From Rathayibacter sp. VKM Ac-2879 (GTDB lineage: Bacteria > Actinomycetota > Actinomycetes > Actinomycetales > Microbacteriaceae), in the NCBI RefSeq assembly GCF_015351245.1, contig NZ_JADKSO010000002.1, positions 248,001 through 312,000 of the forward strand: DNA of 64,000 nt. Reading direction: 5' to 3'. This document shows, in pieces, positions 1,558 to 21,543 of this stretch. Each line of letters begins with the position of its first letter. Within the stretch, counting starts at the first letter, position 1. A model generated the notes under the pieces. The model saw only the letters and a list, made by a program, of their open reading frames with translations. It had not been told where the DNA came from and did no database searches. Made by a program: the position numbers and the translations under genes.

Positions 1558-1608
1558 GGGGAGGTTGGCGGGTGCGCCGCCGATCCTGCCACGGATGTGC
1601 CACGTGGT

Positions 1609-1630
1609 CGAAACACGGCGGCGCTACTGT
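1609..1630 (+). promoter_or_regulatory. Predicted promoter of the purine operon (CGAAAC-N10-TACTGT)
   Basis: CGAAAC at 1609-1614 is followed after exactly 10 bases by the -10-like TACTGT at 1625-1630, about 38 bases before the ATG at 1669. The same arrangement precedes four other purine genes in the window. The -10 assignment and any bound regulator are inferred. Confidence 0.5.
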
Positions 1631-1668
1631 CGGAGCGGCGCGGGCGGTCCGCGAGAGAGCGGGGACGC

Positions 1669-2760
1669 ATGCAGCAAGCGGAAGGGGCGCTCCAGCCCGG
1701 CGAGGGAGTGCCGGACGGCGTGGACTACCTGGCGGCGGAGCCGGGCTCGGTGCTGTGGGGGCGGCTCCCGTGTGCGAGCGACCGGGCGGTGCTGACGATC
1801 GACTCCGGCGCGGAGGTCGTGATCGACACCCTGAGCCACGAGGGCGTGCTGGAGGACCAGGGCCGCGACCCGCTCGCGTACTTCGGCGCGCACGGGGTCC
1901 GACCCGAGGGCGTGTTGCGCGATGCGATCGCGCTCGCCGAGGCCGGCCCCTTCCGCGATACCGCGGTCGACGGCCCGCACGTGGTCACCGGTCCCATCGC
2001 CGTGCGCGGCGCAGAGCCGGGCGACCTGCTGCGGATGACCCTTCTCGAGGCCATCCCGCGGGTGCCCTACGGCGTGATTTCGAACCGGCACGGGCGCGGA
2101 GCGCTGCCGGGCGAGTACCCGCTGCAGGAGGGACCGTTCAGCGTCTTCGCGCGAGCCGAGACGGGGTCGGACGGCGTGCGACGTGGCGTCATCCCGCTCG
2201 TCCCGGGAGGCGAGCGGGCGGCCCGGTTCGAGCTGCGGCCGTTCCTCGGGATCATGGGAGTCGCGGTCGCGGGCGATGAGCGGCCGCACTCGGTGCCGCC
2301 GGGCTCCCACGGGGGCAACATCGACATCGCGCTGCTCTCGGTGGGCACCAGCCTGTACCTGCCGGTGCAGGTTCCGGGTGCGCTCGCGTACGTCGGCGAT
2401 CCGCACTTCGCGCAGGGCGACGGCGAGGTCGCGCTGACCGCGATGGAGGCGAGCCTTCGGGTGCGCGTGCGCTTCGAGGTCGTGCCGCGGGCGGAGGCGC
2501 TCGCCGCGTTCGGCGAGCTGGCCGGCCCCCTCGGCGAGACGGCCGAGTTCCTGGTGCCCACGGGCATGGACGAGGACCTCGATGTGGCCGTGCAGAAGTG
2601 CGTGCGTGCGGCGATCGCATTGCTGGAGGCGCGGTACGGGATGGACGCGAGTCATGCTTACGCCTACCTCAGCGCCGCGACCGACTTCGACATCTCGCAG
2701 GTGGTCGACCTGGTGAAGGGCGTGCACGCCCGCGTGCGGACGGCGGACTTCGATGAGTGA
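1669..2760 (+). CDS. Acetamidase/formamidase family protein
   Basis: Protein of about 363 residues of the FmdA/AmdA family, metal-dependent hydrolases that split simple amides into acid and ammonia. Family features are HxVTGPIAVRGAEPGD near residue 105, a GIMGVA stretch, and SVPPGSHGGNIDI near residue 210. The frame is open far upstream, but family similarity starts after the ATG at 1669, which lies just behind a purine-type promoter box. The stop overlaps the next amidase gene by 8 bases. Given its neighbours, a product of ureide breakdown such as oxamate or another small amide is a plausible substrate, but this is inference. No signal peptide is seen, so it is probably cytoplasmic. Confidence 0.85.
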   Translation: MQQAEGALQPGEGVPDGVDYLAAEPGSVLWGRLPCASDRAVLTIDSGAEVVIDTLSHEGVLEDQGRDPLAYFGAHGVRPEGVLRDAIALAEAGPFRDTAVDGPHVVTGPIAVRGAEPGDLLRMTLLEAIPRVPYGVISNRHGRGALPGEYPLQEGPFSVFARAETGSDGVRRGVIPLVPGGERAARFELRPFLGIMGVAVAGDERPHSVPPGSHGGNIDIALLSVGTSLYLPVQVPGALAYVGDPHFAQGDGEVALTAMEASLRVRVRFEVVPRAEALAAFGELAGPLGETAEFLVPTGMDEDLDVAVQKCVRAAIALLEARYGMDASHAYAYLSAATDFDISQVVDLVKGVHARVRTADFDE

Positions 2761-4315
2761 CGCGCGGGTGACCTCGCTCGAGGGCGAGCTGCCGGAGGGC
2801 CTCGTGGACGCCGTCGAGGCGTACGAGGCGGCGCTCGCGGCCGACGACGTCCCGGCGCTGGCCGAGGCCTTCGTGCGCGCGCCGACGACGCTGCGCGGCG
2901 ACGCCTCCGGACTGCTCGTGGGGCATGAGGCGATCACGGGATTCCGCGGGAGGCGCGGCGGTGCGCCCGCGCGCTCGCTCGCCGAGGTGCACGTCAGGGC
3001 GCTCGATGCCGACACGGCGCTCGTCGTCAGCGTGAACGTCCCGTCGGGGGGTGGGCGTGGGCTCGTCACGCAGCTGTGGTCCCGGCAGGCGGGGGTATGG
3101 CGGGTGCGGGCGGCCCAGGTGCAGGCTCCGGCGCCCGCGGTCGACGTGCGGGTCTGGCGGGCGGTGGGGGCTCCGCTCGTGCCCCCCGTCGCCTCCGGGC
3201 AGCTCGACGGGCTCGACGTCGCGGTCAAGGACCTGTTCGCCATCGAGGGTCAGCGCATCGGGGCGGGCGTGCCCGCATACCTCGCGGAGGCGCCAGTGCA
3301 GCGGTCGACTGCTCCCGCGGTCGCGATGCTGCTGGAGGCGGGGGCGGCCGTGCGGGGAATCGCCCAGACCGACGAGTTCGCCTACAGCATCGCTGGGCGC
3401 AACTCCGGCTACGGGACCCCGCCGAATCCGGCGGTCCCCGGGGCGATACCCGGAGGCTCCTCCAGCGGACCGGCGACGGCCGTCTCGCTCGGGCAGGCTG
3501 CCGTGGGCCTCGCGACCGACACCGCCGGCTCCATCCGGGTGCCGGCGTCGTACCAGGGCCTGTGGGGACTGCGGACCACGCACGGCGCGGTGCCGGTCGA
3601 GGGGCTCCTGCCGCTCGCGCCGAGCTTCGACACCGTCGGCTGGCTGACGCGCGACGCGGCGACGCTCGCGCGAGTGGCGCGCGTCGCTCTGCCGCAGTCG
3701 GCGCTCGAGCCCCGGTTCGCCGTGTCGGAGGCGCTGCTCGCGGGGGTGGACCCGGGGGTGCGCGCGGCGTTCGAGGCCGCGATCGACGCGCTGGTCGCCT
3801 CCGGGACGACGCCGGTGGAGGTCGAGCTGCCACCGGTCGCGGCGATGGTGGACGCGTTCCGTCTGGTGCAGGCGGCGGAGGCGTGGGCCGCGGACGGCGA
3901 GTGGGTTGCGGCGCATCCCGGTGCCCTCGCGGCGGACGTGCAGGGACGCTTCGACACGGCGGCCCGGGTGGACGCCGTGACCGCCGCCTCGGCCCGTGAG
4001 CGGGTTGCCGCCCATCGCGAGGCGCTCGACGACGCGCTCGGCGGGCGGGTGCTCCTGATGCCGAGCACCTCCTCGGTCGCGCCGGCGCTCGACGCCTCCG
4101 CCGAGGATCTGGACGCGGCCCGCACGGCGACGCTCGGCCTGACGTGCCTCGCGGGTATCGGCGGCTATCCGGCGCTCTCGGCGCCGCTGCTCGCGGTGGC
4201 GGGCGCACCGGTGGGGTTGTGCCTGGTCGGCCCGCGGGGCAGTGACCGCGCGCTGATCGAGTGGGGAGCGCGGCTGGGCCTCGCGCGAAACAGCGGCGAA
4301 ACATCTGTTGCGTAG
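2753..4315 (+). CDS. Amidase with N-terminal AtzH/HpxZ-like domain
   Basis: Two-domain protein of 520 residues. Residues 1 to about 125 resemble the AtzH-like/DUF3225 fold (SnoaL-type, as in HpxZ). The rest is an amidase-signature enzyme: catalytic Lys in VAVKDLF (about 160), GGSSSGP with the cis-Ser (about 237), and the nucleophile in DTAGSIRVPAS (about 262). In Klebsiella, separate hpxY (amidase) and hpxZ (DUF3225) genes belong to the hpxWXYZ operon linked to oxalurate/oxamate use, so this looks like a natural HpxZ-HpxY fusion. It directly precedes the aminotransferase whose known product is oxalurate. The substrate is inferred; an allophanate-type ureido acid is the main alternative. Confidence 0.8.
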   Translation: MSDARVTSLEGELPEGLVDAVEAYEAALAADDVPALAEAFVRAPTTLRGDASGLLVGHEAITGFRGRRGGAPARSLAEVHVRALDADTALVVSVNVPSGGGRGLVTQLWSRQAGVWRVRAAQVQAPAPAVDVRVWRAVGAPLVPPVASGQLDGLDVAVKDLFAIEGQRIGAGVPAYLAEAPVQRSTAPAVAMLLEAGAAVRGIAQTDEFAYSIAGRNSGYGTPPNPAVPGAIPGGSSSGPATAVSLGQAAVGLATDTAGSIRVPASYQGLWGLRTTHGAVPVEGLLPLAPSFDTVGWLTRDAATLARVARVALPQSALEPRFAVSEALLAGVDPGVRAAFEAAIDALVASGTTPVEVELPPVAAMVDAFRLVQAAEAWAADGEWVAAHPGALAADVQGRFDTAARVDAVTAASARERVAAHREALDDALGGRVLLMPSTSSVAPALDASAEDLDAARTATLGLTCLAGIGGYPALSAPLLAVAGAPVGLCLVGPRGSDRALIEWGARLGLARNSGETSVA

Positions 4316-4318
4316 ACT
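4285..4318 (+). promoter_or_regulatory. Predicted pucG promoter with 11-bp-spaced GCGAAAC repeats
   Basis: GCGAAAC occurs at 4285-4291 and again at 4296-4302, one helical turn apart. The second copy is followed after 10 bases by TAGACT (4313-4318), a good -10. The same double element precedes the 8-oxoguanine deaminase gene. It lies at the very end of the amidase gene, so pucG probably has its own promoter besides read-through. Confidence 0.5.
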
Positions 4319-4326
4319 CGTCCACT

Positions 4327-4340
4327 GAAACAGCTTTTTC
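4327..4340. promoter_or_regulatory. Candidate operator palindrome GAAACAGCTTTTTC
   Basis: A 14-bp dyad with a single symmetric mismatch, lying just after the predicted transcription start and before the pucG start codon at 4365. A repressor bound here would block transcription. The MurR/RpiR gene 2.5 kb downstream is the natural candidate, but no binding evidence is available from sequence. Confidence 0.4.
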
Positions 4341-4364
4341 GCCCCGCTTCCGAAGAGGACGACC

Positions 4365-5594
4365 ATGACCGCGCCCCTCCTCCCGATCGACCCGCCCGCG
4401 CGTCTGCTGATGGGTCCCGGCCCCATCAACGCCGATCCGCGGGTACTGCGCGCGATGTCTGCGCAGCTCGTCGGCCAGTACGACCCGTTCATGACCGCCG
4501 CGATGAACGAGACCCAAGAGCTGTATCGCCAGGTCTTCCGCACCCGCAACGAGAAGACGATGCTCGTCGACGGCACGAGTCGCGCCGGCATCGAGGCGGC
4601 CCTGGTCTCGATGCTCGAACCGGGCGACCGCGTGCTGGTGCCGGTGTTCGGGCGCTTCGGCCACCTCCTGCGCGAGATCGCCGAGCGCTGTGGCGCCGAG
4701 GTGCACGTGATCGAGGCGGAGTGGGGCCAGGTGTTCCCGGTCTCGGCGATCGCCGAGGCGCTCGCTCGGGTGAAGCCGAAGATGCTCGCCGTCGTGCACG
4801 GCGACACCTCCACGACGATGGCGCAGCCGTTGGAGGAACTCGGTGCGCTGTGCGAGAGGCACGGCGCGCTGTTCTACACCGACGTGACGGCCTCGCTCGC
4901 CGGCAATCCCTTCGGGGCCGACGAGCTCGGGCTCGACGCGGTCTCTGCGGGGCTGCAGAAGTGCCTGGGCGGTCCCTCCGGCTCCGCGCCGGTGACTTTC
5001 TCTGAGCGTGCCGTCGCGGTGATCGAGGGGCGTAAGAGCATCGAGGCGGGCATCCGCGACGAGGGCGACGCGGTGAGCACGCGGGCGGTCCGCTCGAACT
5101 ACTTCGACCTCGGCATGATCTTCGACTACTGGGGCCCGCGCCGCCTCAACCACCACACGGAGGCGACGACAATGCTCTACGGGGCACGCGAGTGCGCCCG
5201 CATCGTCATCGAGGACGGGCTCGAGGCGACGATCGCCCGGCACGAGCTGCACGGCGCTGCGATGCTCGCGGGCGTCCGCGGCCTCGACCTCGAGGTGTTC
5301 GGCGACATCGCGCACAAGATGGCCAACGTGGTCGCCGTCCACATCCCCCAGGGCGTGGACGGCGATGCGGTGCGCGGGGCGATGCTGGCCGACTTCGGGA
5401 TCGAGATCGGCACCTCCTTCGGCCCGCTGCACGGCCGGGTGTGGCGCATCGGGACCATGGGCTATAACGCCCGGAAGGACACGGTGCTCACCACGCTCTC
5501 CGCGCTGGAGTCGGTGCTGCGGCGGGCGGGCGCCTCCGTGCCGGTCGGCGGCGGCGTCGCGGCCGCGTACGAGGTGTACGGGGGCGCGCAGTGA
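4365..5594 (+). CDS. pucG: (S)-ureidoglycine--glyoxylate aminotransferase
   Basis: PLP enzyme of 409 residues of the alanine-glyoxylate/serine-pyruvate aminotransferase class. The LLMGPGPINADPRVL start, the PLP lysine in GLQKCLGGPSG (about K199), YTDVTASL and the RSNYFDLGMIFDYW segment match PucG-type enzymes. These move the amino group of ureidoglycine to glyoxylate, giving oxalurate and glycine. The next gene starts on a GTG that overlaps this stop, so it is translationally linked to the amidohydrolase that would make ureidoglycine. Ordinary serine-glyoxylate aminotransferase is the alternative, but context favours purine use. Confidence 0.85.
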   Translation: MTAPLLPIDPPARLLMGPGPINADPRVLRAMSAQLVGQYDPFMTAAMNETQELYRQVFRTRNEKTMLVDGTSRAGIEAALVSMLEPGDRVLVPVFGRFGHLLREIAERCGAEVHVIEAEWGQVFPVSAIAEALARVKPKMLAVVHGDTSTTMAQPLEELGALCERHGALFYTDVTASLAGNPFGADELGLDAVSAGLQKCLGGPSGSAPVTFSERAVAVIEGRKSIEAGIRDEGDAVSTRAVRSNYFDLGMIFDYWGPRRLNHHTEATTMLYGARECARIVIEDGLEATIARHELHGAAMLAGVRGLDLEVFGDIAHKMANVVAVHIPQGVDGDAVRGAMLADFGIEIGTSFGPLHGRVWRIGTMGYNARKDTVLTTLSALESVLRRAGASVPVGGGVAAAYEVYGGAQ

Positions 5595-6832
5595 GCCTCG
5601 ACGCCGCCGTCGTCATGGCCCGCTGCGACGAGCTGGCCGCCGTCTCGAGCACGCCCGGCGCGATCGAGCGCGTCTACCTCTCTGCCGAGCACGCGCGCGT
5701 CAACGCGATGGCGGCGCGGTGGATGGAGGAGGCGGGGATGCGCACGTGGCAGGACGCCGCCGGCAACCAGTGCGGTCGGTACGAAGGCGTACGGCCGGGC
5801 CTGCCGGCGCTGCTCCTGGGCTCGCACCTCGACACGGTGCCCGACGCAGGACGCTACGACGGGATCCTCGGGGTGATGCTCTCGATCGCGGTCGTCGCGC
5901 GTCTGCACGCCACCGGCCGCCGCCTCCCGTTCGCGGTCGAGGTGATCGCCTTCGGCGATGAGGAGGGGACCCGCTTCGGCACGGCGCTCCTGGGCTCCCG
6001 CGCGGTCGCCGGCACCTGGGACGAGCGCTGGTGGGAACTCGAGGACGCACACGGCACGACCCTGATGGAGGCGTTCCACGCCTTCGGTCTCGACCCCTCG
6101 CGCATCGGTGCCGCCGCGCGCACCTCTGACGAGGTGCTCGCCTATCTCGAGGCGCACATCGAGCAGGGGCCGTATCTCGAGGAGGCGGACCGCGCGCTCG
6201 CCGTCGTCTCGTCGATCGCCGGGGCGCGCCGCTTCGCCCTGACCCTCACCGGCAAGGCCGGGCACGCCGGAGGAGTTCCGCTCGACCGCCGCCGCGACGC
6301 GCTGCCCGGGGCCGCTGAGGCCGTGCTCGCCGTCGAGCGGGTCGCCCGCGAGCACGGCGTCATCGCGACCGTCGGCCGGCTCGAGACGTTTCCCGGGGCG
6401 GTCAACGTCATCCCGGGGCGGGTGGAGTTCAGCCTCGACCTGCGCGCGGAGTTCGACGAGGACCGCGACCGGGCGTGGGAAGCGATCGAGCGCGCGATGT
6501 CGGAGTCGGCGCGCCGGAGACACCTCGCGCTCACGGTCGAGGAGACCCACTCGGCTCCCGCGGTCGCCGCGGCCGGCCACCTCCAGGACGTCGTGCGCGC
6601 GGGTATTCGGGCGACCGGGGACGCCGAGCCGATGGTGCTGTTCTCGAAGGCCGGGCACGACGCGATGGCGATCGCCGAGCTGGCCGACTACGCGATGCTC
6701 TTCCTCCGCTGCGAGGGCGGGGTCAGCCACCACCCCGCCGAGAACGTGACCGAGGCCGACGTGGCGAGTGCGCTCGACGCGTTCGAGGCCGCGGTGCTTG
6801 CTTTCGCCGAGAGCCGGGCGACGGGGGCGTGA
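5591..6832 (+). CDS. allC: Allantoate amidohydrolase / M20 ureido-acid hydrolase
   Basis: Protein of 413 residues of the M20 metallopeptidase-like amidohydrolases (allantoate, ureidoglycolate and carbamoyl-amino acid hydrolases). Metal ligands are visible in GSHLDTVPDAGRYDG (H79, D90), DEEGTRF (E124/E125) and HIEQGPYLE, with a final GGVSHHPAENV. It should release ammonia and CO2 from allantoate to give ureidoglycine, the substrate of the aminotransferase encoded just before. The GTG start at 5591 overlaps the pucG stop. Sequence alone cannot separate allantoate from N-carbamoyl amino acid specificity, so the assignment rests on context. Confidence 0.85.
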   Translation: MSLDAAVVMARCDELAAVSSTPGAIERVYLSAEHARVNAMAARWMEEAGMRTWQDAAGNQCGRYEGVRPGLPALLLGSHLDTVPDAGRYDGILGVMLSIAVVARLHATGRRLPFAVEVIAFGDEEGTRFGTALLGSRAVAGTWDERWWELEDAHGTTLMEAFHAFGLDPSRIGAAARTSDEVLAYLEAHIEQGPYLEEADRALAVVSSIAGARRFALTLTGKAGHAGGVPLDRRRDALPGAAEAVLAVERVAREHGVIATVGRLETFPGAVNVIPGRVEFSLDLRAEFDEDRDRAWEAIERAMSESARRRHLALTVEETHSAPAVAAAGHLQDVVRAGIRATGDAEPMVLFSKAGHDAMAIAELADYAMLFLRCEGGVSHHPAENVTEADVASALDAFEAAVLAFAESRATGA

Positions 6833-6834
6833 CG

Positions 6835-7680
6835 ATGGTCGCCGAGACCGCGAGCATCGGCCACCGCATCGATGCCGGCTACGCGACACTCTCTCGCCAG
6901 GAGCAGCGGGCCGCCGACTTCATCCTCGATCATCTCGGCGACCTCGCGGTGTACACGGCCACAGAGCTCGCGCAGCACAGCGGCGTCTCGAAGGCGACGG
7001 TCTCACGGCTGTTCCGTCGCCTGGGCTTCTCGAACTCGCAGGAGGTGCGCGAGCACGCCAGGGCCCTGCGCAGCTCCGGCGTGCCGGTGGGCCCGGCACA
7101 CGGTCCCGGGGAGGCGCTTGCGGTGCACCTCGTGAGCGAGCGCGCGAACCTGGAGCGGCTCGCCACGGCGCTCGGCGGCGGCCGGCTCGAGCAGGCGGTC
7201 GAGCTGCTGGCCCGGGCGCGCGACGTCGTCGTGATCGGCTTGCGCAACAGCTACCCCGTGGCATTGCACCTGCGCCAGCAGCTCGCGCAGGCTCGGGGCG
7301 GCGTGCGCCTCGCACCTCAGCCCGGCCAGTCGCTCGGGGAGGAGCTCGTGGGGCTCGGGGCCGAGGACGTGGTGGTGCTCGTCGGATTCCGTCGCCGGCC
7401 CGCCTCCTTCGCGGCCCTCGTGGAGGCGCTGGCCGCGCGCGCGGTGCCGGTGGTCCTGCTCGCCGATCCTCCGGCGCGCCGCCACGCCGAGCACGCGACG
7501 GTGTGGCTCGAGTGCCCCGTGGACAGCGAGGCCGCGTTCGACAGCTACGCGGCGGCGATGAGCGCGGTCGCGCTGCTCGCCTCCGGGGTGCTCGGCGCGC
7601 AGCCGCGCGAGTCGCGCGAGCGCATCGCCGGCATCAGTACCGCCTACGCCGAGCTCGGCGAGCTCGAGGAGCGGCCGTGA
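6835..7680 (+). CDS. MurR/RpiR family transcriptional regulator
   Basis: Regulator of about 281 residues. An N-terminal helix-turn-helix (about 1-75, ATELAQHSGVSKATVSRLFRRLGF) is followed by a SIS domain (about 110-260, VVVIGLRNSYPVALHL). SIS domains usually bind phosphosugars, but RpiR-type regulators also occur in purine gene clusters. The ATG at 6835 has a GGGGGCG stretch 6 bases upstream; a GTG at 6829 would overlap the previous stop and is a close alternative. It sits inside the catabolic operon and is probably its local repressor. The candidate operator is the palindrome at 4327-4340. Confidence 0.85.
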   Translation: MVAETASIGHRIDAGYATLSRQEQRAADFILDHLGDLAVYTATELAQHSGVSKATVSRLFRRLGFSNSQEVREHARALRSSGVPVGPAHGPGEALAVHLVSERANLERLATALGGGRLEQAVELLARARDVVVIGLRNSYPVALHLRQQLAQARGGVRLAPQPGQSLGEELVGLGAEDVVVLVGFRRRPASFAALVEALAARAVPVVLLADPPARRHAEHATVWLECPVDSEAAFDSYAAAMSAVALLASGVLGAQPRESRERIAGISTAYAELGELEERP

Positions 7681-8090: not shown

Positions 8091-8125
8091 GCGGGGCCGG
8101 GGCGAGGCGCGCTGTCCCGCTCGAC

Positions 8126-8680: not shown

Positions 8681-8748
8681 CGGACCATCGTGCCGCAGCT
8701 CGCGGCCAAGCCGCTCACACCTCCGCTCCGCCCGACGAAGGAGACCGC

Positions 8749-9252: not shown

Positions 9253-9596
9253 GCGCCCACGTCAGCCACGTCACCACCCACGTGCTCGACGCCGTGCGCG
9301 GCCGCCCGGCGGAGGGCGTGCCGGTCGCGCTCGAGGCGAGCCACGAGTCGGGCTGGGAACGGCTCGTCGAGGCGCGCACCGACGCCGACGGCCGCGTGAG
9401 CGCCTTCGGCCCGGAGGCGCTGCCCGCCGGCGTCTACCGCGTCGTCTTCGACACCGGCGCCTGGTTCGCGGCCGCGGGGACGGAGTCGTTCTACCCCGAG
9501 ATCGTCGTCGCCTTCCGCCTCGACGCCGAGGCGGCGCATGTCCACGTCCCGCTGCTGCTCAGCCCGTTCGCCTACTCGACCTACCGGGGCAGCTGA
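9249..9596 (+). CDS. pucM: 5-hydroxyisourate hydrolase (transthyretin-like)
   Basis: Protein of 115 residues, the usual length for the family. It hydrolyses the unstable uricase product 5-hydroxyisourate to OHCU. The start carries VTTHVLDAVRGRPAEGV with the catalytic histidine (H11), and the protein ends in the diagnostic C-terminal tetrapeptide YRGS. It overlaps uraD at its start and the PucR gene at its stop (TGATG). No peroxisomal or secretion signal is present, so it is cytoplasmic. Confidence 0.95.
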   Translation: MSAHVSHVTTHVLDAVRGRPAEGVPVALEASHESGWERLVEARTDADGRVSAFGPEALPAGVYRVVFDTGAWFAAAGTESFYPEIVVAFRLDAEAAHVHVPLLLSPFAYSTYRGS

Positions 9597-11149
9597 TGCA
9601 GCTCCAGGACGTCCTCGACGCGCCGCAACTCCGCCTGCGTGTGCTGGTCGCCGACGACGGCGCCCTCGCGCGCGTCGTCGACGGGATCTTCACGACCGAC
9701 CTGCTCGACCCGCGCCGCTACCTCGCCCGCGACCAGCTCGTGCTCACCGGAATGGTGTGGCGCCGCACCCCGCGCGACAGCGAGGCGTTCGTGTCGGCAG
9801 TCGCCGACTCCGGCGCCAGCGCCCTGCTGGCAGGCGAGGGGCTCTACGGCTTCGTGCCGGACGATCTCGTCGTGGCCTGCCGCGCCCACGAGGTCCCGCT
9901 GATCGCCGTGCCCGCCGACGTCTCCTTCGGCGCGATCACGGCCCACCTCTCGAACGCGCTCGCCGGCGAGCGCGTCGCCCGCCTGACCGCGGGCCTCGTG
10001 CGCCAACGGGAGCTGCTCACCGAGGTCTACCGCGGGCAGCAGCTCGACGAGGTGGTGGCGCGCACCGCGACCGAGCTGCGCCTCACGGTGCGTGTGCTCA
10101 CCGCGACCGGCCGCAGCGCCGCCTCCGCCTCGCCGCTCGGACCGGGCGAGGTCGAGCGCATCGTGCGCGCCGGACTGACCGCACGCCGCAGCCCCGTCGT
10201 CATCGCCGACGCCGAGGGCGACGCTCTCTCGGTCTTCGCCGTCGCCGGACCCGACGAGCACCGCGCCACCTCGTGGCTCGTGGTCGTCGGCGGAGACTGG
10301 AACGAGTGGCCGCCCTCTGTGCTCGACGCGGTCGGCGAGCTGGTCGGCGTGGTGGGGATCTACCGACTGCAGCGCGAGGCGGCCATGGCCGCCGACTCCG
10401 CCCTCGCCGACCGCCTCCTCGAGCTCGTGGAGGAGGACAGCGAGCAGCCTGAGACGGCCGTGTACCTCCGCCAGCTCGGGCTCGCCGGAGCGGGACGCTG
10501 CCAGGTCGTCGCGGCGGAGTTCGAGGGGGAGGCGCCGCCCGAGCTGGCGCGGAGGGTGCTGGCCGACGCCGCCGCCCACCTCGGTCGTGCCGTGGTCGGC
10601 CGTGACGTTCAGGGCTGCGCGGTCGCGCTGCTCCCGGTGGAGGCGAGCGCCCCGGGGGCGGATCCGCTCGCCGCCGTGGTCGCGGCCCTCCGGCGCGCGG
10701 GTGCCGCGTGGCCGGGCGCCGTGCTGCGGGTGGGGGCGAGCGCCGCGACTCCGTTGGCCGCTCTCGGAGGAGCGCTGCGCTCGGCGCGCTACGGGATGCT
10801 CCTGCCCGGCGTGCCCGGCGACGACAACCGCGTGCGCCTCAGCGACTCCGGCGAGGTGACGTCGGCGGTACAGCTGCTCAGCGCGGTGCCCGATCACCTC
10901 CGCACGGTGTTCGTCGAGCTGGTGCTCGGCCCCCTCGCCGAGCACGACGCGCGCTACAACTCCCAGCTCGTGGCGACGCTCACGGCGTTCCTCGACTGCG
11001 GCGGCTCGTGGGTGCGCACGGCGGAGCAGACCCACCTGCACCTCAACACCGTCCGCTACCGCATCGCGCGGGTGGAGGAGCTGACGCAGCGCGACCTGTC
11101 GGACACGGCCGACCGCGCGGACTTGTTCCTGGCGTTGCGGCTGCGCTGA
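9596..11149 (+). CDS. pucR: PucR family transcriptional regulator
   Basis: Regulator of 517 residues. The N-terminal PucR domain (about 1-125), a middle CdaR/GGDEF-like region (about 270-400) and a C-terminal helix-turn-helix (about 455-515, with TAEQTHLHLNTVRYRIARVEELT) match the PucR/CdaR family. In Bacillus subtilis PucR controls purine catabolism in response to pathway intermediates such as allantoin. Here it is the last gene of the uraD-pucM-pucR operon. It could be the factor that recognises the GAAAC element shared by five promoters; this needs testing. Confidence 0.85.
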   Translation: MQLQDVLDAPQLRLRVLVADDGALARVVDGIFTTDLLDPRRYLARDQLVLTGMVWRRTPRDSEAFVSAVADSGASALLAGEGLYGFVPDDLVVACRAHEVPLIAVPADVSFGAITAHLSNALAGERVARLTAGLVRQRELLTEVYRGQQLDEVVARTATELRLTVRVLTATGRSAASASPLGPGEVERIVRAGLTARRSPVVIADAEGDALSVFAVAGPDEHRATSWLVVVGGDWNEWPPSVLDAVGELVGVVGIYRLQREAAMAADSALADRLLELVEEDSEQPETAVYLRQLGLAGAGRCQVVAAEFEGEAPPELARRVLADAAAHLGRAVVGRDVQGCAVALLPVEASAPGADPLAAVVAALRRAGAAWPGAVLRVGASAATPLAALGGALRSARYGMLLPGVPGDDNRVRLSDSGEVTSAVQLLSAVPDHLRTVFVELVLGPLAEHDARYNSQLVATLTAFLDCGGSWVRTAEQTHLHLNTVRYRIARVEELTQRDLSDTADRADLFLALRLR

Positions 11150-11167
11150 CGGCGCGGCCGGCTGTCG

Positions 11168-13500: not shown

Positions 13501-13686
13501 GTCCGCTCCTGTTCGTGCCGGGCCGTTCTGCCACGGGTGCCGCTGCCGCGCGTGCCCGTCTGCCAGACTCTCGCGCGGACCGGGCCGCTCGCATCCGCGA
13601 AGCGCTCAGTCTCCGCGCCGCGCCGCTCCTGAGTGTTGTGTGATCCGCCCGCCCCCGCGCGCCGCCGCGCCCCCGTTCACACACCC

Positions 13687-13706
13687 GAAACGTCCCGGGA
13701 ACATTC
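13687..13706. promoter_or_regulatory. Candidate operator dyad GAA-N3-TCCCGGGA-N3-TTC
   Basis: A 20-bp dyad centred on TCCCGGGA, with matching GAA/TTC ends, in the spacer upstream of uricase. The plus strand here also reads CGAAAC-N10-CATTCC, which resembles the purine promoter box but has no gene in front of it. It touches the left edge of palindromic repeat copy 2. A regulator role is inferred only from symmetry and place. Confidence 0.3.
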
Positions 13707-13768
13707 CGCGAGATGCCACTTGTGCGCGGATTCGTCGGCGTGTCGTGCGCATAAGTGGCATCTCGCGG
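13706..13768. repeat. Palindromic intergenic repeat, copy 2
   Basis: Arms 13706-13727 and 13747-13768 are 22 bp inverted repeats with one mismatch. The loop contains TCGGCGTGTCG, in the same orientation as copy 1. It lies between the allantoinase stop and the uricase start, both on the minus strand. The rest of the 286-base gap is GC-rich and shows no gene. Confidence 0.88.
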
Positions 13769-13786
13769 AGGGGGGGCGGGCGCGGG

Positions 13787-15136: not shown

Positions 15137-15142
15137 GGATCG

Positions 15143-15164
15143 ACCCTATACTCGGCATGTTTCC
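15143..15164 (-). promoter_or_regulatory. Predicted allB promoter (GGAAAC-N10-TAGGGT, leaderless)
   Basis: Read on the minus strand: GGAAAC (15164-15159), 10 bases, TAGGGT (15148-15143), 6 bases, ATG at 15136. On the plus strand the same bases contain TATACT (15147-15152), a good -10 for the divergent xdhC gene, so the two promoters overlap. Confidence 0.5.
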
Positions 15165-15225
15165 TGCGTGTGAGCGCCCGCACGCCCCGGCAGTGCCGCC
15201 TCCCGACCGCCCCGAGGAGGCCACC

Positions 15226-16332
15226 GTGCTCGAACTCGCCGCCCCGCTGCTCGAGCGTCTCGACGCCGGCGAGCGCGTCGCCGTCGTGACCGTCACGCAC
15301 GTCTTCGGCTCGGCTCCGCGCGCCCTCGGCTCGTCGATGGCGGTCGACGCGGGCGGCCGGGCGATCGGCTCGATCTCGGGAGGCTGCGTCGAGGCCCAGG
15401 CGTACGCGCTGGCCCACCAGGTGCTCGGGACGGACGACGCGGAGTCGGGCGCCTGGGCGAGCGAGCACTTCGGATTCGACGACGAGTCGGCCTTCGCCGC
15501 CGGCCTCTCCTGCGGCGGACAGCTGCGGGTGGTCGGGCAGGTGGTCGACCCCGGATCCACGGCGGTGATCGCCGAACTGCGCGCCGCCCGAGCCGGGCGC
15601 GCCGCGGGGCTCGCGATGATCGTCGGCGGCCCGGAGGCGCTCGTCGGCCGGGTGCTCACGGGCGCGACCCGCGCGCACGACGTCGTCGGGCCCGGGCTCG
15701 ACGAGGAGGCGGTGCGCCGGATCCTCGCCGAGCGCGAGGCTCGGATGCGGTCGGGTCGCTCGGCGACGATCGAGATCGCGTGCCAGGGGAGCGAGCTGGA
15801 GGTCGCCTACGTGGTGAACGCCTCGCGGCCTCGGCTGATCGTGTTCGGCGCGGTCGATTTCTCGGCCGCGCTGTGCTCGGCGGGAGCCCTTCTCGGATAC
15901 CGCGTCACGATCTGCGACGCCCGCCCCCTGTTCGCGACGGCCGAGCGTTTCCCGGGGGCCGACGAGGTCGTCGTCGCCTGGCCCTCCGACTACCTGGCGT
16001 CGACCGAGGTGGACGACCGCACGGTCCTGGCGATCCTCACCCACGACGAGAAGTTCGACATCCCGCTGCTCTCGGTCGCGCTGACCCTCCCGGTCGCCTA
16101 CGTCGGGGCGATGGGCTCCCGTCGGACGCACGAGCGGCGACGGGGCCTCCTGCGCGAGGCGGGGGTGACGGACGAGGCGCTCGGCCGCCTCCACTCGCCG
16201 ATCGGGCTGGACATCGGCGCGTCGACACCCGAGGAGACGGCGGTCTCGATCCTCGCGGAGGTGCTCGCGGTGCGGGCTGCCGCGTCCGGCGAGTCGCTGC
16301 GGAGGCGGACCGGGCCGATCCACGCGGGCTGA
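15226..16332 (+). CDS. xdhC: XdhC-type xanthine dehydrogenase accessory protein
   Basis: Protein of about 368 residues of the XdhC/CoxI family, which binds and inserts sulfurated molybdenum cofactor into xanthine dehydrogenase. The N-terminal block FGSAPRALGSSMAVDAGG plus GSISGGCVEA and the C-terminal Rossmann part (VFGAVDFSAALC, YVGAMGSRRTHERR, SPIGLDIGASTPEE) are diagnostic. The GTG at 15226 is chosen for its GAGGAGG six bases upstream and because homology starts there. An ATG at 15157 would add 23 poorly conserved residues. It lies beside the 8-oxoguanine deaminase gene and near the XDH genes. Confidence 0.88.
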   Translation: MLELAAPLLERLDAGERVAVVTVTHVFGSAPRALGSSMAVDAGGRAIGSISGGCVEAQAYALAHQVLGTDDAESGAWASEHFGFDDESAFAAGLSCGGQLRVVGQVVDPGSTAVIAELRAARAGRAAGLAMIVGGPEALVGRVLTGATRAHDVVGPGLDEEAVRRILAEREARMRSGRSATIEIACQGSELEVAYVVNASRPRLIVFGAVDFSAALCSAGALLGYRVTICDARPLFATAERFPGADEVVVAWPSDYLASTEVDDRTVLAILTHDEKFDIPLLSVALTLPVAYVGAMGSRRTHERRRGLLREAGVTDEALGRLHSPIGLDIGASTPEETAVSILAEVLAVRAAASGESLRRRTGPIHAG

Positions 16333-16347
16333 AGGCTCCTCCCTCCC

Positions 16348-16381
16348 GCGAAACCCTCGCGAAACACCGTGCTGCCATGCT
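16348..16381 (+). promoter_or_regulatory. Predicted promoter of 8-oxoguanine deaminase gene
   Basis: GCGAAAC at 16348-16354 and 16359-16365 (11-bp spacing, as upstream of pucG), then 10 bases, then CATGCT (16376-16381), then 6 bases and the ATG at 16388. The mRNA is predicted to be leaderless. Confidence 0.5.
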
Positions 16382-16387
16382 CGAGCG

Positions 16388-17785
16388 ATGCAGCGCCACG
16401 TCATCACCGGAGCCCACGTCGCGACGGTCGACGGGGCAGGCGCCGAGTACCCTGGCGGACACGTCGTCGTCGACGACAGCCGGATCGTCGCGGTCGGCGC
16501 CGGCGTGCCTCCGGCCTGGGCGCTCGACGGGCGTGCCCCCACCGGCCTGCCCGCTCAGGAGCCGGTCGTCACCACGCGCTTCGACGGCCGTGGCCATCTG
16601 CTCACCCCCGGGCTCGTCAACACGCACCACCACCTCTACCAGTGGCTCACCCGCGGCTGGGCGCAGGACTCGATCCTCTTCGACTGGCTCGTCGCCCTCT
16701 ATCCGGCCTGGTCGCGGATCGACGCCGAGCTGACCCGCACCGCCTCCCTCGGCGCGATGGGGGTGCTCGCCCGCTCCGGCTGCACGACCGTCGCCGACCA
16801 CCACTATGTGTTCCCTCGCGGCTCCGGCGACATCGTCGGCGGGATCGTCGACGCCGCCGGCATCCTCGGCCTCCGCCTGCATGCGACACGCGGCTCGATG
16901 GACCTCGGGGCCTCGCAGGGCGGCCTCCCGCCCGACTTCGCCGTCGAGACCACCGCCGCGGCGATGGAGGCGAGCGCCACGGCGGTCTCGCGCTACCACG
17001 ACGCCTCCGCCGGCTCGATGGTGCAGATCGCCCTCGCGCCGTGCTCGCCGTTCTCGGTGACCCCCGATCTGCTGCGGGAGTCGGCCGTGCTCGCCCGCCA
17101 GCTCGGCGTGCGCCTGCACACCCACGGTTCCGAGACCCTCGAGGAGGACGCCTACACGCGCGAGGTGTTCGGCATGACTCCCACCGACTACCTGGAGTCG
17201 CTGGGCTGGCTCGGCGACGACGTCTGGATGGCGCACGGCGTGCACCTCGACGACGCGGCGATCGCGAAGTTCGCGGCTACGGGCACGGGAGTCGCGCACT
17301 GCCCCTCCTCGAACGGTCGGCTCGCGGCGGGGATCGCGCCGATCCCGCAGCTGCTCGCGGCCGGGGCGCCCGTGGGGCTCGGCGTCGACGGCGCGGCCTC
17401 GAACGAGTCCGGCCAGCTCGGCTCCGAGATCCGCGCGGCGGTGCTGATGAACCGGCTCCGCGCGGGGGCGGACCGGATGAGCGTCCGCCAGGCGCTCTCG
17501 GTCGCCACGATCGGAGGCGCGCGCGTCCTCGGTCGGCAGGACGAGATCGGCTCGATCGAGGTGGGCAAGCTGGCCGACCTCGCCCTCTGGCGCATCGACG
17601 GCATCGAGCACGCGGGAATCGCGGACCCGGTTGCCGCGCTGGCGCTGGGGGCACAGCCTCCGCTCACGCTGCTGCTGGTGCACGGGAGGCCGGTGGTGTC
17701 GGAGGGGCGCCTCGTGACCGCCGACGAGCACGCGATCGCGGGCGAGGTTGCCCAGGCGAGCGCCGATCTCGCGTCGCGGATCTGA
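16388..17785 (+). CDS. 8-oxoguanine deaminase
   Basis: Amidohydrolase of 465 residues. The metal motif NTHHHLYQWLTRGWAQD (H80-H82) and the later HTHGSETLEED, HGVHLDD and GVDGAASNES blocks match the bacterial 8-oxoguanine deaminase group within the ATZ/TRZ-like family. The enzyme makes uric acid from 8-oxoguanine, feeding oxidised guanine directly into the uricase branch without XDH. Isoxanthopterin or another purine is possible within this family. It is co-directional with xdhC, and it converges with the XDH gene across an inverted repeat. Confidence 0.82.
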   Translation: MQRHVITGAHVATVDGAGAEYPGGHVVVDDSRIVAVGAGVPPAWALDGRAPTGLPAQEPVVTTRFDGRGHLLTPGLVNTHHHLYQWLTRGWAQDSILFDWLVALYPAWSRIDAELTRTASLGAMGVLARSGCTTVADHHYVFPRGSGDIVGGIVDAAGILGLRLHATRGSMDLGASQGGLPPDFAVETTAAAMEASATAVSRYHDASAGSMVQIALAPCSPFSVTPDLLRESAVLARQLGVRLHTHGSETLEEDAYTREVFGMTPTDYLESLGWLGDDVWMAHGVHLDDAAIAKFAATGTGVAHCPSSNGRLAAGIAPIPQLLAAGAPVGLGVDGAASNESGQLGSEIRAAVLMNRLRAGADRMSVRQALSVATIGGARVLGRQDEIGSIEVGKLADLALWRIDGIEHAGIADPVAALALGAQPPLTLLLVHGRPVVSEGRLVTADEHAIAGEVAQASADLASRI

Positions 17786-17795
17786 CCGCCCGCGA

Positions 17796-17863
17796 CACAA
17801 CGTCAGCTCAGGCGCCTCGTCGTGCGTGATCGTGCGCGAGAGCCCGTCTCAGCTGACGTTGTG
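17796..17863. terminator. Inverted repeat between convergent genes, probable bidirectional terminator
   Basis: CACAACGTCAGCT (17796-17808) is matched perfectly by AGCTGACGTTGTG (17851-17863), with a 42-base centre. It lies in the 82-base gap between two convergent stops. The long loop and absence of a T-tract leave open that it is another palindromic repeat type. Confidence 0.5.
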
Positions 17864-17867
17864 CACG

Positions 17868-20660
17868 TCATCCGGGAGGAGCGTCCACCGCGACCGTCGC
17901 GACGGGCACCGCGGAGGGGTGCAGCATCCGCCACACGCGGTCGCGCGACAGCGGCAGTTCGCGCGGCCTGACGCCGATCGCGTCACGCACCGCGTTGGCG
18001 AGGGCTGGGGCGACGGGGTTGTACGGCGCCTCGCTCATCGACTTCGCACCGAACGGCCCGAGCGCATCGGCGGTGTCGGCGAAGTACACCTCGGTCTCGG
18101 GCAGATCAGCCAGCTGCGGGATGTGGTAATTGCGGAGGATCGCCGTGGTGACCGTCCCCTCGCCGTCGAGGATCACCTCCTCGTAGAGCGCGGAGCCGAT
18201 CGCCTGTGCCACGCCTCCCTCGATCTGCCCCCGGCACTGCGCCGGGTTCAGGACGAAGCCCGCGTCGGCCGACTGCACCGACTGCAGGATGCGCACCTCG
18301 CCCGTCGGCTCGTGCACCGCGACGCGGAAGCCCTGCACGTTGAACGCGAGCGAGCGCTGCGCGCCGTCCTCACTCGCCGTCGCCGTCAGAGGGCCGCCTG
18401 CAGCGCGCGTCAGTTCGTCGAAGCCCACGCGGGTGCCGTCGGCCGAGAGCAGGCCGGAGTCGTCCGGCTCGAACTCGCTGCCGTCGTGCCCGGTCAGCCG
18501 CTTCGCGATGGAGCGCGCCTCGGCCAGCAGTCGCGTCGCCGCCGCGTACACCGCCTTGCCGGCCACGACCGTTCCGGCGCTGCCGAAGGCGCCGGTGTCG
18601 TACCGCGCGGCGGCCGTGTCGGAGTGGCGCAGGCGCACCCGGTCGGCGGAGGCGCCGAATGCGCTCGCGACGAGTTGCGTGTGCACCGTGGTGGTCCCGT
18701 TGCCGAACTCGGTGGTGCCGACCCCGACGGTGAGCAGGCCCTCGGCGTCGAGGGTGACGGTCGCCTCCGAGAAGTGCCCGCGCGGGGGGATCGTGGCGAT
18801 CATGGCGACCGCCATGCCCTGCCCGGTGCGCCAGCCCGGTCCCGCGGGAGGCTCGGAGCCGGCTCCGCGGGCGAGCGCCGTCTGGGTGAGGTCGAGGCAC
18901 TGGTCGAGCCCGTACGAGGCGAAGCCGATGTCGTCGCCCTCGACGTGCGTGACGACGAGAGGTTCGCCGGGGCGGACGGCGTTGATCCGTCGCAGCTCGA
19001 AGGGGTCGATGTCGAGCGTGCGGGCCAGGTCGTCCATCGCCGACTCGATCCCGAAGATCACCTGCCCGAGCCCGTAGCCGCGGAACGCCCCCGAGGGCAG
19101 GTTGTTCGTGTAGACGGCCTGGGCGTCGACCCGCTTGTTGGGGGCCGAGTAGACGGCCACCGACTCCGAGGTGCCGTGGAACAGGACGCCCGGGCCGTGG
19201 TTGCCGTAGGCGCCCGTGTCCGAGAGTACGTCGACCGCGAGCGCGGTGAGGCGTCCGTCGTGGCGGGCTCCGAGGGTGACGTCGACGCGCATCGGGTGAC
19301 GGCACGGCGCCATCGTGAACTCGTCGCTGCGGGTGAACTCGAACTGCACCGGCCTCCCCGTGGCGAGCACCGCGAGGGCGACCACGTCCTCCGTGAGGAT
19401 CTCCTGCTTGCCGCCGAAGCCTCCGCCCACGCGTGCCGTGAACACGCGCACGCTCGCGGGATCGCGCGAGAAGAGCCGGGCGATCTCGTCGCGCACGAGG
19501 AACGGCACCTGCGTCGAGGTCCGCAGCACGAGGGCGTCGCCCTCGAGCCAGCCGATCGTGCCGTGCGTCTCGAGCGAGACGTGGGCGACACGGGAGGTCC
19601 GGTAGCGTCCCTCGACGACCACATCGGCCTCGGCGAGGCCCGCGGCGACGTCGCCGTGCTCGCCGTGCAGCTCGGCGACGACGTTCCCCTCGGGCCGTGC
19701 GATCCGGGACGCGATCGGGTCCTTCTCGCCGTGAAGGAGGGGCGCGCCCGGCGTGCGCGCCTCCTCCGGGTCGAACACGGCCGGCAGCACCTCGTACTCG
19801 ACGTCGAGTGCGCGACAGCCCGCCTCGGCTTGCGCGACCGATTCGGCGACCACCACGGCGACGCGCTGCCCGCGGAACCGCACGACCGTGTCGAGCATCC
19901 GCGTGTCGTCCGGGTCGTCGAGCCGCGACTCGTGCCGGGCCGTCGAGTACAGCACGTCGGGCACGTCGGCCGCGGTGAGCACCGCCACCACTCCGGGGAG
20001 CGCTCGCGCCGCCGCGGTGTCGATCGAGTGCACGCGGGCGTGCGCGTGCGGGCTTTGTAGGACCTTCACGTGCAGGAGCCCCGGCACGGCGACGTCGAGG
20101 GTGAAGGGCTCGCGGCCCTGCACGATCCTCCGGCCGGCCGGCGCGCCGAGGGATCGGCCGACGTGCGAGTCGGCGGCGGAGGTGCCGGTGCGCCGGACGG
20201 GAGTGAGCCCCGCGGGAGGCGCCGTCTCTCCCGAGCGACCGCACGCGATCGCCTCACGGATCGCCCGGTATCCCGTGCATCGGCAGAGGTTGCCCTTGAG
20301 CAGCCGCGGCACATCCTCGGCACGAGCGCCCTCGAGGGCGGTGGCCGTGACGACCATGCCGGCCGTGCAGAACCCGCACTGGAAGGCGCCGGCCTCGACG
20401 AAGGCCTCCTGCATCGCGCTCGGCTCCTCGGGAGTGCCGAGGCCCGAGACCGTCGTGACCTCGCGGCCTTCGACGCGGTGGGCGGGGTAGAGGCAAGAGT
20501 GGAGGGGCGTTCCGTCGACCAGGACCGAGCAGGCGCCGCAGTCGCCCGCGTCGCAGCCCTTCTTGACCTCGAAGTGCTCGTGCTCGCGCAGCAGGGTGCG
20601 CAGCACTTGGCCGGGCCGGGGGGAGGCGTCGATCGCCTCGCCGTTGACGGTGAACCTCAC
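17868..20660 (-). CDS. Xanthine dehydrogenase, fused 2Fe-2S and molybdopterin subunit
   Basis: Protein of 930 residues joining two subunits that are often separate. Residues 1 to about 155 carry two 2Fe-2S clusters (C36, C41, C44, C56, then C95, C98, C126, C128). From about residue 180 comes the molybdopterin-binding part, with VGGGFGGKQE, AFRGYGLGQ and a terminal GAKSMSEAPYNP block whose Glu should be the catalytic base. It oxidises hypoxanthine and xanthine to urate. The ATG overlaps the stop of the FAD-subunit gene (ATGA). The FeS-Mo fusion differs from the FAD-FeS fusion of classical XdhA and from the three-subunit PucCDE layout. Confidence 0.9.
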   Translation of the reverse strand: MRFTVNGEAIDASPRPGQVLRTLLREHEHFEVKKGCDAGDCGACSVLVDGTPLHSCLYPAHRVEGREVTTVSGLGTPEEPSAMQEAFVEAGAFQCGFCTAGMVVTATALEGARAEDVPRLLKGNLCRCTGYRAIREAIACGRSGETAPPAGLTPVRRTGTSAADSHVGRSLGAPAGRRIVQGREPFTLDVAVPGLLHVKVLQSPHAHARVHSIDTAAARALPGVVAVLTAADVPDVLYSTARHESRLDDPDDTRMLDTVVRFRGQRVAVVVAESVAQAEAGCRALDVEYEVLPAVFDPEEARTPGAPLLHGEKDPIASRIARPEGNVVAELHGEHGDVAAGLAEADVVVEGRYRTSRVAHVSLETHGTIGWLEGDALVLRTSTQVPFLVRDEIARLFSRDPASVRVFTARVGGGFGGKQEILTEDVVALAVLATGRPVQFEFTRSDEFTMAPCRHPMRVDVTLGARHDGRLTALAVDVLSDTGAYGNHGPGVLFHGTSESVAVYSAPNKRVDAQAVYTNNLPSGAFRGYGLGQVIFGIESAMDDLARTLDIDPFELRRINAVRPGEPLVVTHVEGDDIGFASYGLDQCLDLTQTALARGAGSEPPAGPGWRTGQGMAVAMIATIPPRGHFSEATVTLDAEGLLTVGVGTTEFGNGTTTVHTQLVASAFGASADRVRLRHSDTAAARYDTGAFGSAGTVVAGKAVYAAATRLLAEARSIAKRLTGHDGSEFEPDDSGLLSADGTRVGFDELTRAAGGPLTATASEDGAQRSLAFNVQGFRVAVHEPTGEVRILQSVQSADAGFVLNPAQCRGQIEGGVAQAIGSALYEEVILDGEGTVTTAILRNYHIPQLADLPETEVYFADTADALGPFGAKSMSEAPYNPVAPALANAVRDAIGVRPRELPLSRDRVWRMLHPSAVPVATVAVDAPPG

Positions 20661-21469
20661 GAGGCGCCTCCGGAGAGCTCGGTGCGGATCTCTTCGGCGA
20701 GCACACGGACGACGGCGTGCCGCCAGTCGGCGGCGCCGTGCGGGTCGGTGAACCAGCTCGCGATGCCGTCGACGGCGTCAGCGAGTTCGTCGGCGGAGGG
20801 CACGGCGGCGAAGCGGAGCAGCTCGGGCCGGACCGTGGCCGCCGTCACCGTGACGGTGAGCGAGCCGTCGCTGTCGAGCCGTCCGATGACCACGGCGCCG
20901 GAGCGGCCGAGCGGCGAGAGGGCCGTCTTGCGGAACGCGGTGCGCGCCTCCAGGGCGTGCCGAGGCAGCTCGATCGAGCGGAGCACGTCGCCGTGCTCGA
21001 GCGTCGTCGTCATGTTTCCTGTGACGAGCTCGGCCACCGGCACGAGGGCGTCGCTGCCGTCGGGCCGCCAGATGAGCGCGGAGGCGTCGAGCGCCGCGGC
21101 GAGGCTGATCATCGGCCCGGCGGGCAGCGCGTTGGCGATGTTGCCGCCCACGGTCGCGACATTCCAGATCTTGAACGAGCCGAGCAGGGCCGTGCAGCAC
21201 TGGAAGAAGAGGGGGTGCGCGGCGTACCCGGTGTCGGGGAGGGCGGCGAGCTCGGCCAGCGTGCACGTCGCGGCGAGGGAGAGGCCCGCCTCGCTCACCC
21301 GGACGGGCTCCCACGCGAAACCCTGCAGGTCGAGGAGCTCGTCGAGGTGGTCGTGGGGGAGCGAGAACACCCAGGAGCCGCCTCCGATGACTGCCGTGCG
21401 CGGGCCCATGTCCGCGAGCTCGGCACGTTCGTGGACGACTCGCACCCGCTGAATCGTGTTCAGGTCCAT
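20657..21469 (-). CDS. Xanthine dehydrogenase FAD-binding subunit
   Basis: Protein of about 270 residues, the CoxM/XdhB-type FAD subunit that takes electrons from the 2Fe-2S clusters to the final acceptor. The FAD-binding turn TAVIGGGSWVFSLPHDH lies near the N-terminus, and the second flavin motif is NVATVGGNIANALPAGPM. The ATG at 21469 has GAGAGG six bases before it; an ATG at 21526 would add 19 residues. It is translationally coupled to the fused FeS-Mo gene. A purine-type promoter box lies at 21522-21543. Confidence 0.88.
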   Translation of the reverse strand: MDLNTIQRVRVVHERAELADMGPRTAVIGGGSWVFSLPHDHLDELLDLQGFAWEPVRVSEAGLSLAATCTLAELAALPDTGYAAHPLFFQCCTALLGSFKIWNVATVGGNIANALPAGPMISLAAALDASALIWRPDGSDALVPVAELVTGNMTTTLEHGDVLRSIELPRHALEARTAFRKTALSPLGRSGAVVIGRLDSDGSLTVTVTAATVRPELLRFAAVPSADELADAVDGIASWFTDPHGAADWRHAVVRVLAEEIRTELSGGAS

Positions 21470-21521
21470 GCTGTGCCTCTCGCCGATGTCCGCGGGGTGC
21501 GGGCTCCTCCAGTGAACCTCA

Positions 21522-21543
21522 GACATGTGACGCGCGTGTTTCC
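21522..21543 (-). promoter_or_regulatory. Predicted XDH operon promoter (GGAAAC-N10-CATGTC)
   Basis: Minus-strand GGAAAC at 21543-21538 is followed after 10 bases by CATGTC (21527-21522), about 52 bases before the preferred start at 21469. It matches the spacing of the other purine promoters, with a weaker -10. Confidence 0.42.

Follow-up and report, generated by a model that had tools for sequence, protein, structure and literature searches.

Purine-degradation genes of Rathayibacter share a predicted GlnR box, which at pucG overlaps a proposed RpiR operator

We analysed a 64,000-nucleotide stretch of the genome of Rathayibacter sp. VKM Ac-2879 (contig NZ_JADKSO010000002.1, positions 248,001 to 312,000; hereafter the window), in which five genes of purine catabolism share a promoter element, GAAAC followed ten bases later by a -10-like hexamer. 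These are a formamidase-like gene (fmdA), pucG, allB, the 8-oxoguanine deaminase gene and the gene of the FAD subunit of xanthine dehydrogenase (XDH). Judging from its letters, the element is very probably the GlnR box of the nitrogen-starvation regulon, with a local RpiR-type regulator proposed at pucG on two palindromes, the first of which overlaps the GlnR GAAAC. GlnR is indicated because the same element stands before glnA and nirBD in relatives, because a ladder of AC dinucleotides in 11-bp steps ends in GAAAC, and because the half-sites match the published box. The shared motif is well supported as marking new members of a GlnR regulon, to which the overlap at pucG is a modestly novel addition.

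Results

The five sites in the window

A sequence-only reading of the window had placed [CG]GAAAC-N10-[TC]ANNN[TC] in front of the five genes. Its coordinates and strands are correct, GAAAC and the hexamer are in each case separated by exactly 10 bases, and the 6-base gap from hexamer to ATG that it gave for two promoters is borne out for allB and 8-oxoguanine deaminase. The pattern has seven matches in the window, all seven within 1609-21543, the purine cluster: the five sites, one at 13686 (+) that is oriented away from uox, and one at 16349 (+) that is the upstream GAAAC of the tandem 16350/16361. Order-3 Markov copies of the window (n = 200) held 0.43 matches on average and 4 at most, and the five sites are not chance.

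What that reading overlooked is a second half-site 11 bp upstream of GAAAC. An AC lies at this distance at four of the five sites, compared with 5 of 31 across all GAAAC in the window (these four included), and it is this half-site that identifies the probable regulator as GlnR. Two half-sites 11 bp apart (AC-n9-AC) are present at all five sites, with GAAAC as the downstream half at four and as the upstream half at XDH. The downstream half reads GAAACA in four cases, in agreement with the consensus GaAAc followed by A (GnAACA in Mycobacterium smegmatis), and GTCACA at XDH, which departs from it. The sites and associated features are, in window coordinates:

1599..1630, + strand: predicted GlnR box and -10 of the formamidase-like gene fmdA (GCCAC 1599-1603, GAAAC 1610-1614, -10 TACTGT 1625-1630; matrix rank 3)
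4287..4318, + strand: predicted GlnR box and -10 of pucG (GAAAC 4287-4291, GAAAC 4298-4302, -10 TAGACT 4313-4318; matrix rank 1)
4297..4312, + strand: palindrome P1, CGAAACATCTGTTGCG, agreeing with TGAAAC-N4-GTTTCA at 9/12 positions; candidate upstream operator of RpiR, which overlaps both the GlnR half-site and the spacer
4326..4341, + strand: palindrome P2, TGAAACAGCTTTTTCG, 10/12; candidate downstream operator of RpiR, located within the pucG leader at a distance of 29 bp from P1
6826..7680, + strand: RpiR-type regulator gene of the pucG-allC-rpiR run, with HTH_6 and SIS domains (Pfam PF01418, PF01380)
9596-11149: PucR-domain regulator gene (PF07905, PF13556)
15143..15174, - strand: predicted GlnR box and -10 of allB (CTCAC 15174-15170, GAAAC 15163-15159, -10 TAGGGT 15148-15143; matrix rank 2)
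16350..16381, + strand: predicted GlnR box and -10 of 8-oxoguanine deaminase (GAAAC 16350-16354, GAAAC 16361-16365, -10 CATGCT 16376-16381; matrix rank 4)
21527..21542, - strand: predicted GlnR box of the XDH FAD subunit gene in its conserved register (GAAAC 21542-21538, GTCAC 21531-21527; -10 not confidently assigned)

Transcription of allB and of 8-oxoguanine deaminase is predicted to start at the ATG itself (15136 and 16388, respectively). The first ATG of an xdhC-like open reading frame (ORF), at 15157, falls inside the GAAACAT of allB, and the true xdhC start probably lies further downstream. NCBIfam cut-offs were passed by allantoinase AllB, urate oxidase, 8-oxoguanine deaminase and allantoate amidohydrolase; the names formamidase, pucG and XDH FAD subunit come from NCBIfam matches below cut-off together with context. 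The uricase of the window is 90% identical to that of Rathayibacter tanaceti.

A matrix was then built from 41 sites outside the purine cluster, 15 of them from glnA, nirB and nirD of Rathayibacter and 26 from other genomes of the family (L210, L211, L233 and L238 were not used for training). Its first four ranks in the window fell on pucG (24.8), allB (24.3), fmdA (24.1) and 8-oxoguanine deaminase (16.8), the fifth (14.2) was the tandem copy at 16350, after which the scores dropped to 11.0. At a score of 16.75, 0.05 hits per 64 kb are expected from 20 simulated windows.

The element in related genomes

The genome-wide scans and the search for a GlnR gene cover relatives, not the source genome of the window. 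Six Rathayibacter genomes (G001-G006) hold 96 matches to GAAAC-N10-TANNNT (9, 19, 17, 15, 20 and 16), compared with 5 for the reversed pattern (0, 1, 2, 2, 0 and 0), and in three Rathayibacter genomes the spacings from N6 to N16 gave 5, 14, 7, 6, 52, 8, 4, 8, 5, 5 and 9 matches, the 52 being those at N10. On these counts the motif is not scattered at random in relatives. Across 80 uricase loci (two of them, L025 and L026, from one genome) the spacing peaks at 10 and, one 11-bp unit further, at 21, with 12 and 5 matches in Rathayibacter (7 loci) and 26 and 25 in other Microbacteriaceae (37 loci), while the 36 loci from mycobacteria, Williamsia and Rhodococcus gave 2 at spacing 10 and 1 at 21, their highest count being 5, at 14.

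Ninety-one of the 96 places were read (the remainder being four in G001 and the one at pucG in G003), and removal of 6 copies of a conserved match lacking an ORF gave 85 sites for a tally of upstream AC: 39 have it at 11 bp, 22 at 22 bp and 16 at 33 bp, other offsets giving 0-12. The start codon lies 27 bases from GAAAC in 11 of the 91 sites, a distance at which transcription would begin on it, and 28 bases away in another 11, compared with 0-7 for the other offsets between 22 and 57.

Before glnA, four Rathayibacter genomes carry GTAAC, GAAAC, GACAC and GAAAC in 11-bp steps followed by N10-TACCCT; TTAAC was never seen as the first half-site, and one genome has GTTAACATGG there. A fifth, G001, has the same promoter with no ORF called there. 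GlnA was identified by TIGR00653 in L134. The divergent nirB and nirD/CbiX genes have the element in five genomes each, and it also precedes a phosphorylase-family gene, a nucleoside hydrolase gene, the formamidase gene, allB and pucG; some other genes with it, e.g., a glycoside-hydrolase-like gene and a TetR-type gene, lack a clear nitrogen link. GlnR is encoded by all 7 Rathayibacter genomes searched and by 56 of 60 genomes of the family. The best solved relatives of the Rathayibacter protein include 4o1h, named 'Transcription regulator GlnR', and 8hih and 8hig, which we take to be GlnR-polymerase or GlnR-DNA structures. The exact pattern GTNAC-n6-GAAAC-N10-TANNNT occurs in 28/60 family genomes (reversed pattern, 4/60), and of the 30 such loci that were read, 8 precede genes called glnA-like from their similarity to L134.

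The motif is conserved in relatives that have this cluster, as the sequence-only reading required, apart from the XDH site, which they retain in a different register. GAAAC-N10-TANGGT is retained at allB in all eight relatives, and the box of 8-oxoguanine deaminase (GTAAC, GAAAC or TTTAC, then n6-GAAAC-N10-CANGCT) in all seven relatives having it (L013 belongs to a related genus). At pucG the distance from GAAAC to the hexamer is 10 in four and 11 in two of the six relatives listed, and L005 has GACAC there. Every letter of the XDH string is present in the window, but what relatives conserve is not its distance to CATGTC: L001, L002, L003 and L005 read G[A/T]AAC-n6-GTCAC-N10-TT[C/G]ACT and L007 reads GAAAC-n6-GTCAT with the same TTCACT, which places the box one 11-bp unit beyond the register first noted, with GTAAC replacing GAAAC in 2 of 5 relatives. 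For this comparison L004 was incomplete, L006 begins inside xdhB and L013 gave no match.

Paired palindromes at pucG

At pucG the GAAAC of the GlnR-type box is also the left half of a palindrome near TGAAAC-N4-GTTTCA, and a second palindrome follows 29-31 bp downstream. Among 199 genomes of the family, pucG was found in 57 (E<=1e-120), and rpiR (E<=1e-40) in 38 of these and in no others; the counts that follow are of 58 pucG upstream regions from these 57 genomes, which, being related, are not independent. A palindrome matching the consensus at 9 or more of 12 positions is present in 36 of 38 regions with rpiR and in 2 of 20 without it (shuffled, 3%), and one matching at 10 or more in 32/38 vs 2/20, an association not wholly independent of the consensus, which was read from promoters partly among the 58. 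The exceptions with a palindrome and without rpiR are G087 and G202, and in G202 the end of the contig, 1.6 kb beyond pucG, would cut off an rpiR gene; those with rpiR and a palindrome below threshold are G040 and G081. No rpiR orthologue was found at E<=0.001 in G065, and G067 and G069 gave only 28%-identical partial matches. In lineages without rpiR the palindromes are mostly absent and the GlnR box is kept in some: of the loci of these three genomes, L020 and L025 lack both palindromes and keep GTAAC-n6-GAAAC-N10-TAAGCT, and in L005 GACAC replaces GAAAC in both palindromes.

Strict GlnR-type boxes were found in 29 of 38 pucG regions with rpiR, 5 of 20 without it and none of 1160 simulated ones; the absence of rpiR thus often coincides with that of the strict box, which weakens a clean separation of the two signals. 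The fmdA, allB, 8-oxoguanine deaminase and XDH sites have no palindromic GTTTC-like right half. A 16-mer self-complementarity score (L004, L031 and L036 dropped as incomplete) separated promoters poorly by rpiR, with L005 and L020 at 4/8 for P1 like several that have rpiR, and the consensus score on 58 promoters was therefore adopted. The exact string GAAAC-N4-GTTTC occurs at 0-4 places per genome, with a match in 7 of 11 genomes and control hits in two; with so few places, and controls matching too, we do not claim a genome-wide RpiR regulon from it.

On balance we favour a reading in which the promoter of the pucG-allC-rpiR run in Microbacteriaceae is a compact two-signal gate: the GlnR GAAAC half-site would double as the left arm of the upstream RpiR operator, and an RpiR tetramer bridging the palindromes, 29-31 bp apart, across the -10 and the start would exclude GlnR and RNA polymerase. 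Among the literature matches listed, none describes an RpiR regulator of pucG.

Discussion

GlnR, an OmpR/PhoB-type protein, would bind head to tail on half-sites every 11 bp (nnnAC-n6-GAAAC), the last of them 10 bp upstream of a TANNNT-like -10. Covering about -38 to -23, it would replace the missing -35 and recruit sigma-A RNA polymerase under nitrogen limitation, and for some promoters transcription is predicted to begin right on the start codon, at its first base. RpiR at pucG would most likely be a repressor, relieved by a pathway intermediate, on the two palindromes, so it may be that the pucG-allC-rpiR run needs nitrogen shortage and substrate together. We agree with the sequence-only reading that GAAAC lies in the spacer between -35 and -10 and is not itself a -35, and that the element is a shared regulatory one; a regulator explains it better.

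The GlnR box has been given as gTnAc-n6-GaAAc (PMC10704036) and, in Mycobacterium smegmatis, as Gn2AC-n6-GnAACA, with conserved A residues required for binding (PMC3662644). GlnR of that species binds upstream of purine permease genes (PMC3662644), and under nitrogen starvation its purine genes, uricase among them, and its formamidase genes are up (PMC4222082, PMC4617892). At Streptomyces coelicolor amtB the a2 half-site occupies the -35 position (PMC5826061); by the 11-bp register the next half-site would lie in the spacer, as it does in the window. Our full-text literature search for GlnR in Microbacteriaceae gave one paper, which deals with lake communities.

Several other readers of the element were weighed. 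The RpiR-type protein of the cluster could read all five sites as a cluster-specific regulator, and the GAAAC of pucG is indeed half of a palindrome that co-occurs with rpiR (36/38 vs 2/20). Yet we regard this as highly improbable, given that a GTTTC-like right half is missing from the other four sites, that exact GAAAC-N4-GTTTC is found at only 0-4 places per genome (11 genomes), that the element also stands before glnA and nirBD, and that the GlnR-type box at pucG persists without an rpiR orthologue in L020 and L025. Of the readers suggested from the sequence, this protein is thus retained for pucG only, where its palindrome overlaps the GlnR half-site. PucR controls purine catabolism in Bacillus subtilis, and a PucR-domain regulator is located in the cluster, where it might bind the element as a purine-specific activator; we consider PucR just as improbable, since the element fits the GlnR consensus and stands, with its 11-bp repeats, before glnA and nirBD as well.

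Least probable of all is an alternative sigma factor recognising GAAAC and the hexamer as two promoter elements. It would account for the fixed spacing and for the hexamer 6 bases from the ATG in two promoters, but it has no need for AC half-sites 11, 22 and 33 bp upstream, the TANNNT-like hexamer is of the ordinary sigma-A type, and by established promoter geometry GAAAC, which begins 15 bases before the hexamer, is too near for a -35. Neither PucR nor an unusual sigma factor is supported as the common reader. Direct repeats of 11 bp beside the -10 are also used by SARP/AfsR-type and PhoP-type regulators: in SARP boxes the final 11-bp repeat lies 8 bp from the -10 (PMC10936776), and PhoP sites overlap GlnR sites in Streptomyces (PMC10704036). 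No BTAD-domain (SARP) protein was found at E<=0.001 in any of the 3 Rathayibacter genomes searched, the best-known targets of the element here are nitrogen genes and its letters fit GlnR; we rate this reading slightly less probable than PucR and slightly more so than the sigma factor.

Other results weigh against GlnR itself. The Rathayibacter protein gave no GlnR hit in NCBIfam, only PhoB-type matches below cut-off, and the presence of the gene is known from the genomes of relatives, not from the source genome. Of 60 family genomes, 56 encode GlnR but 32 have no strict box, which is missing likewise in 24 of the 58 pucG upstream regions; among the 85 genome-wide matches, 46 have no AC in the upstream register, and some resemble other promoters, such as that of the TetR-type gene with TTGACT 17 bp from TAGGTT. 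The upstream AC is missing at allB in 1 of 8 relatives (L006) and at fmdA in one of four (s68). Because GAAAC and TANNNT were built into the choice of training sites, what the matrix gains over the pattern first noted is the upstream half-site, and the XDH FAD site ranked 87 in the register of that first pattern. The promoters of pucG, allB and 8-oxoguanine deaminase in the window show one box each, and GlnR hardly binds the promoter-proximal box of S. coelicolor amtB on its own (PMC5826061), although one box is sufficient at S. coelicolor gdhA (PMC10704036). Finally, binding and activation by GlnR, its contact with sigma, repression by RpiR and the inducer are what we infer from sequence.

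Like the GlnR regulons of Streptomyces and M. smegmatis, the set described here has gTnAc/GaAAc half-sites every 11 bp and, in relatives, predicted targets that include glnA and nirBD. It differs in its hosts (Rathayibacter and other Microbacteriaceae), in the strict GAAAC-N10-TANNNT register with some predicted leaderless starts, and in that allB, pucG, 8-oxoguanine deaminase and XDH each have their own box. SARP/AfsR promoters are similar in having 11-bp direct repeats over the -35 region just upstream of the -10, with a different regulator family and different letters. As with RpiR-family local regulators (e.g., NanR and GlaR), an HTH_6 and SIS protein is encoded beside its proposed target operon; here the pathway is purine and ureide catabolism, and one proposed operator shares GAAAC with a GlnR half-site.

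The string nnnAC-n6-GAAAC-N10-TANNNT points to GlnR promoters and likely transcription starts in Microbacteriaceae and gives a testable regulon, in which GlnR control is likely to extend to purine-ring degradation, gene by gene. It also flags an RpiR regulator whose operator would overlap a GlnR site, and an odd fixed spacing need not imply a new sigma factor.

Additional observations

In five genomes (L129, L153, L169, L181 and L202) the TetR-type gene has GAAAC-N10-TAGGTT with TTGAC 17 bp from the -10 where counted; the promoter is probably of the ordinary sigma-A kind, with GAAAC there for some other reason. The sequence GAAACCGTAGGGGTTTACTTT (L124 1501-1521) is identical in all six Rathayibacter genomes scanned, with no downstream ORF called, and is possibly an RNA element rather than a GlnR site; Rfam gave no match at the gathering threshold in L124 or L139, nor in window positions 1-30000.

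Between allB and uox, TTCAC-n6-GAAAC at 13676-13691 (+), on the strand facing away from uox and about 180 bp from its start, may be chance. The uox promoters of L011, L014 and L016 have an 11-bp direct repeat of CGTAAATT, which is not the GlnR consensus and perhaps serves another regulator. Two 67-nt copies of an intergenic inverted repeat (GAGATGCCACTT...AAGTGGCATCTC), 84% identical, lie at 1498-1564 and 13707-13773 of the window, and a similar one is found upstream of 8-oxoguanine deaminase in L003; it looks like a dispersed REP-like element.

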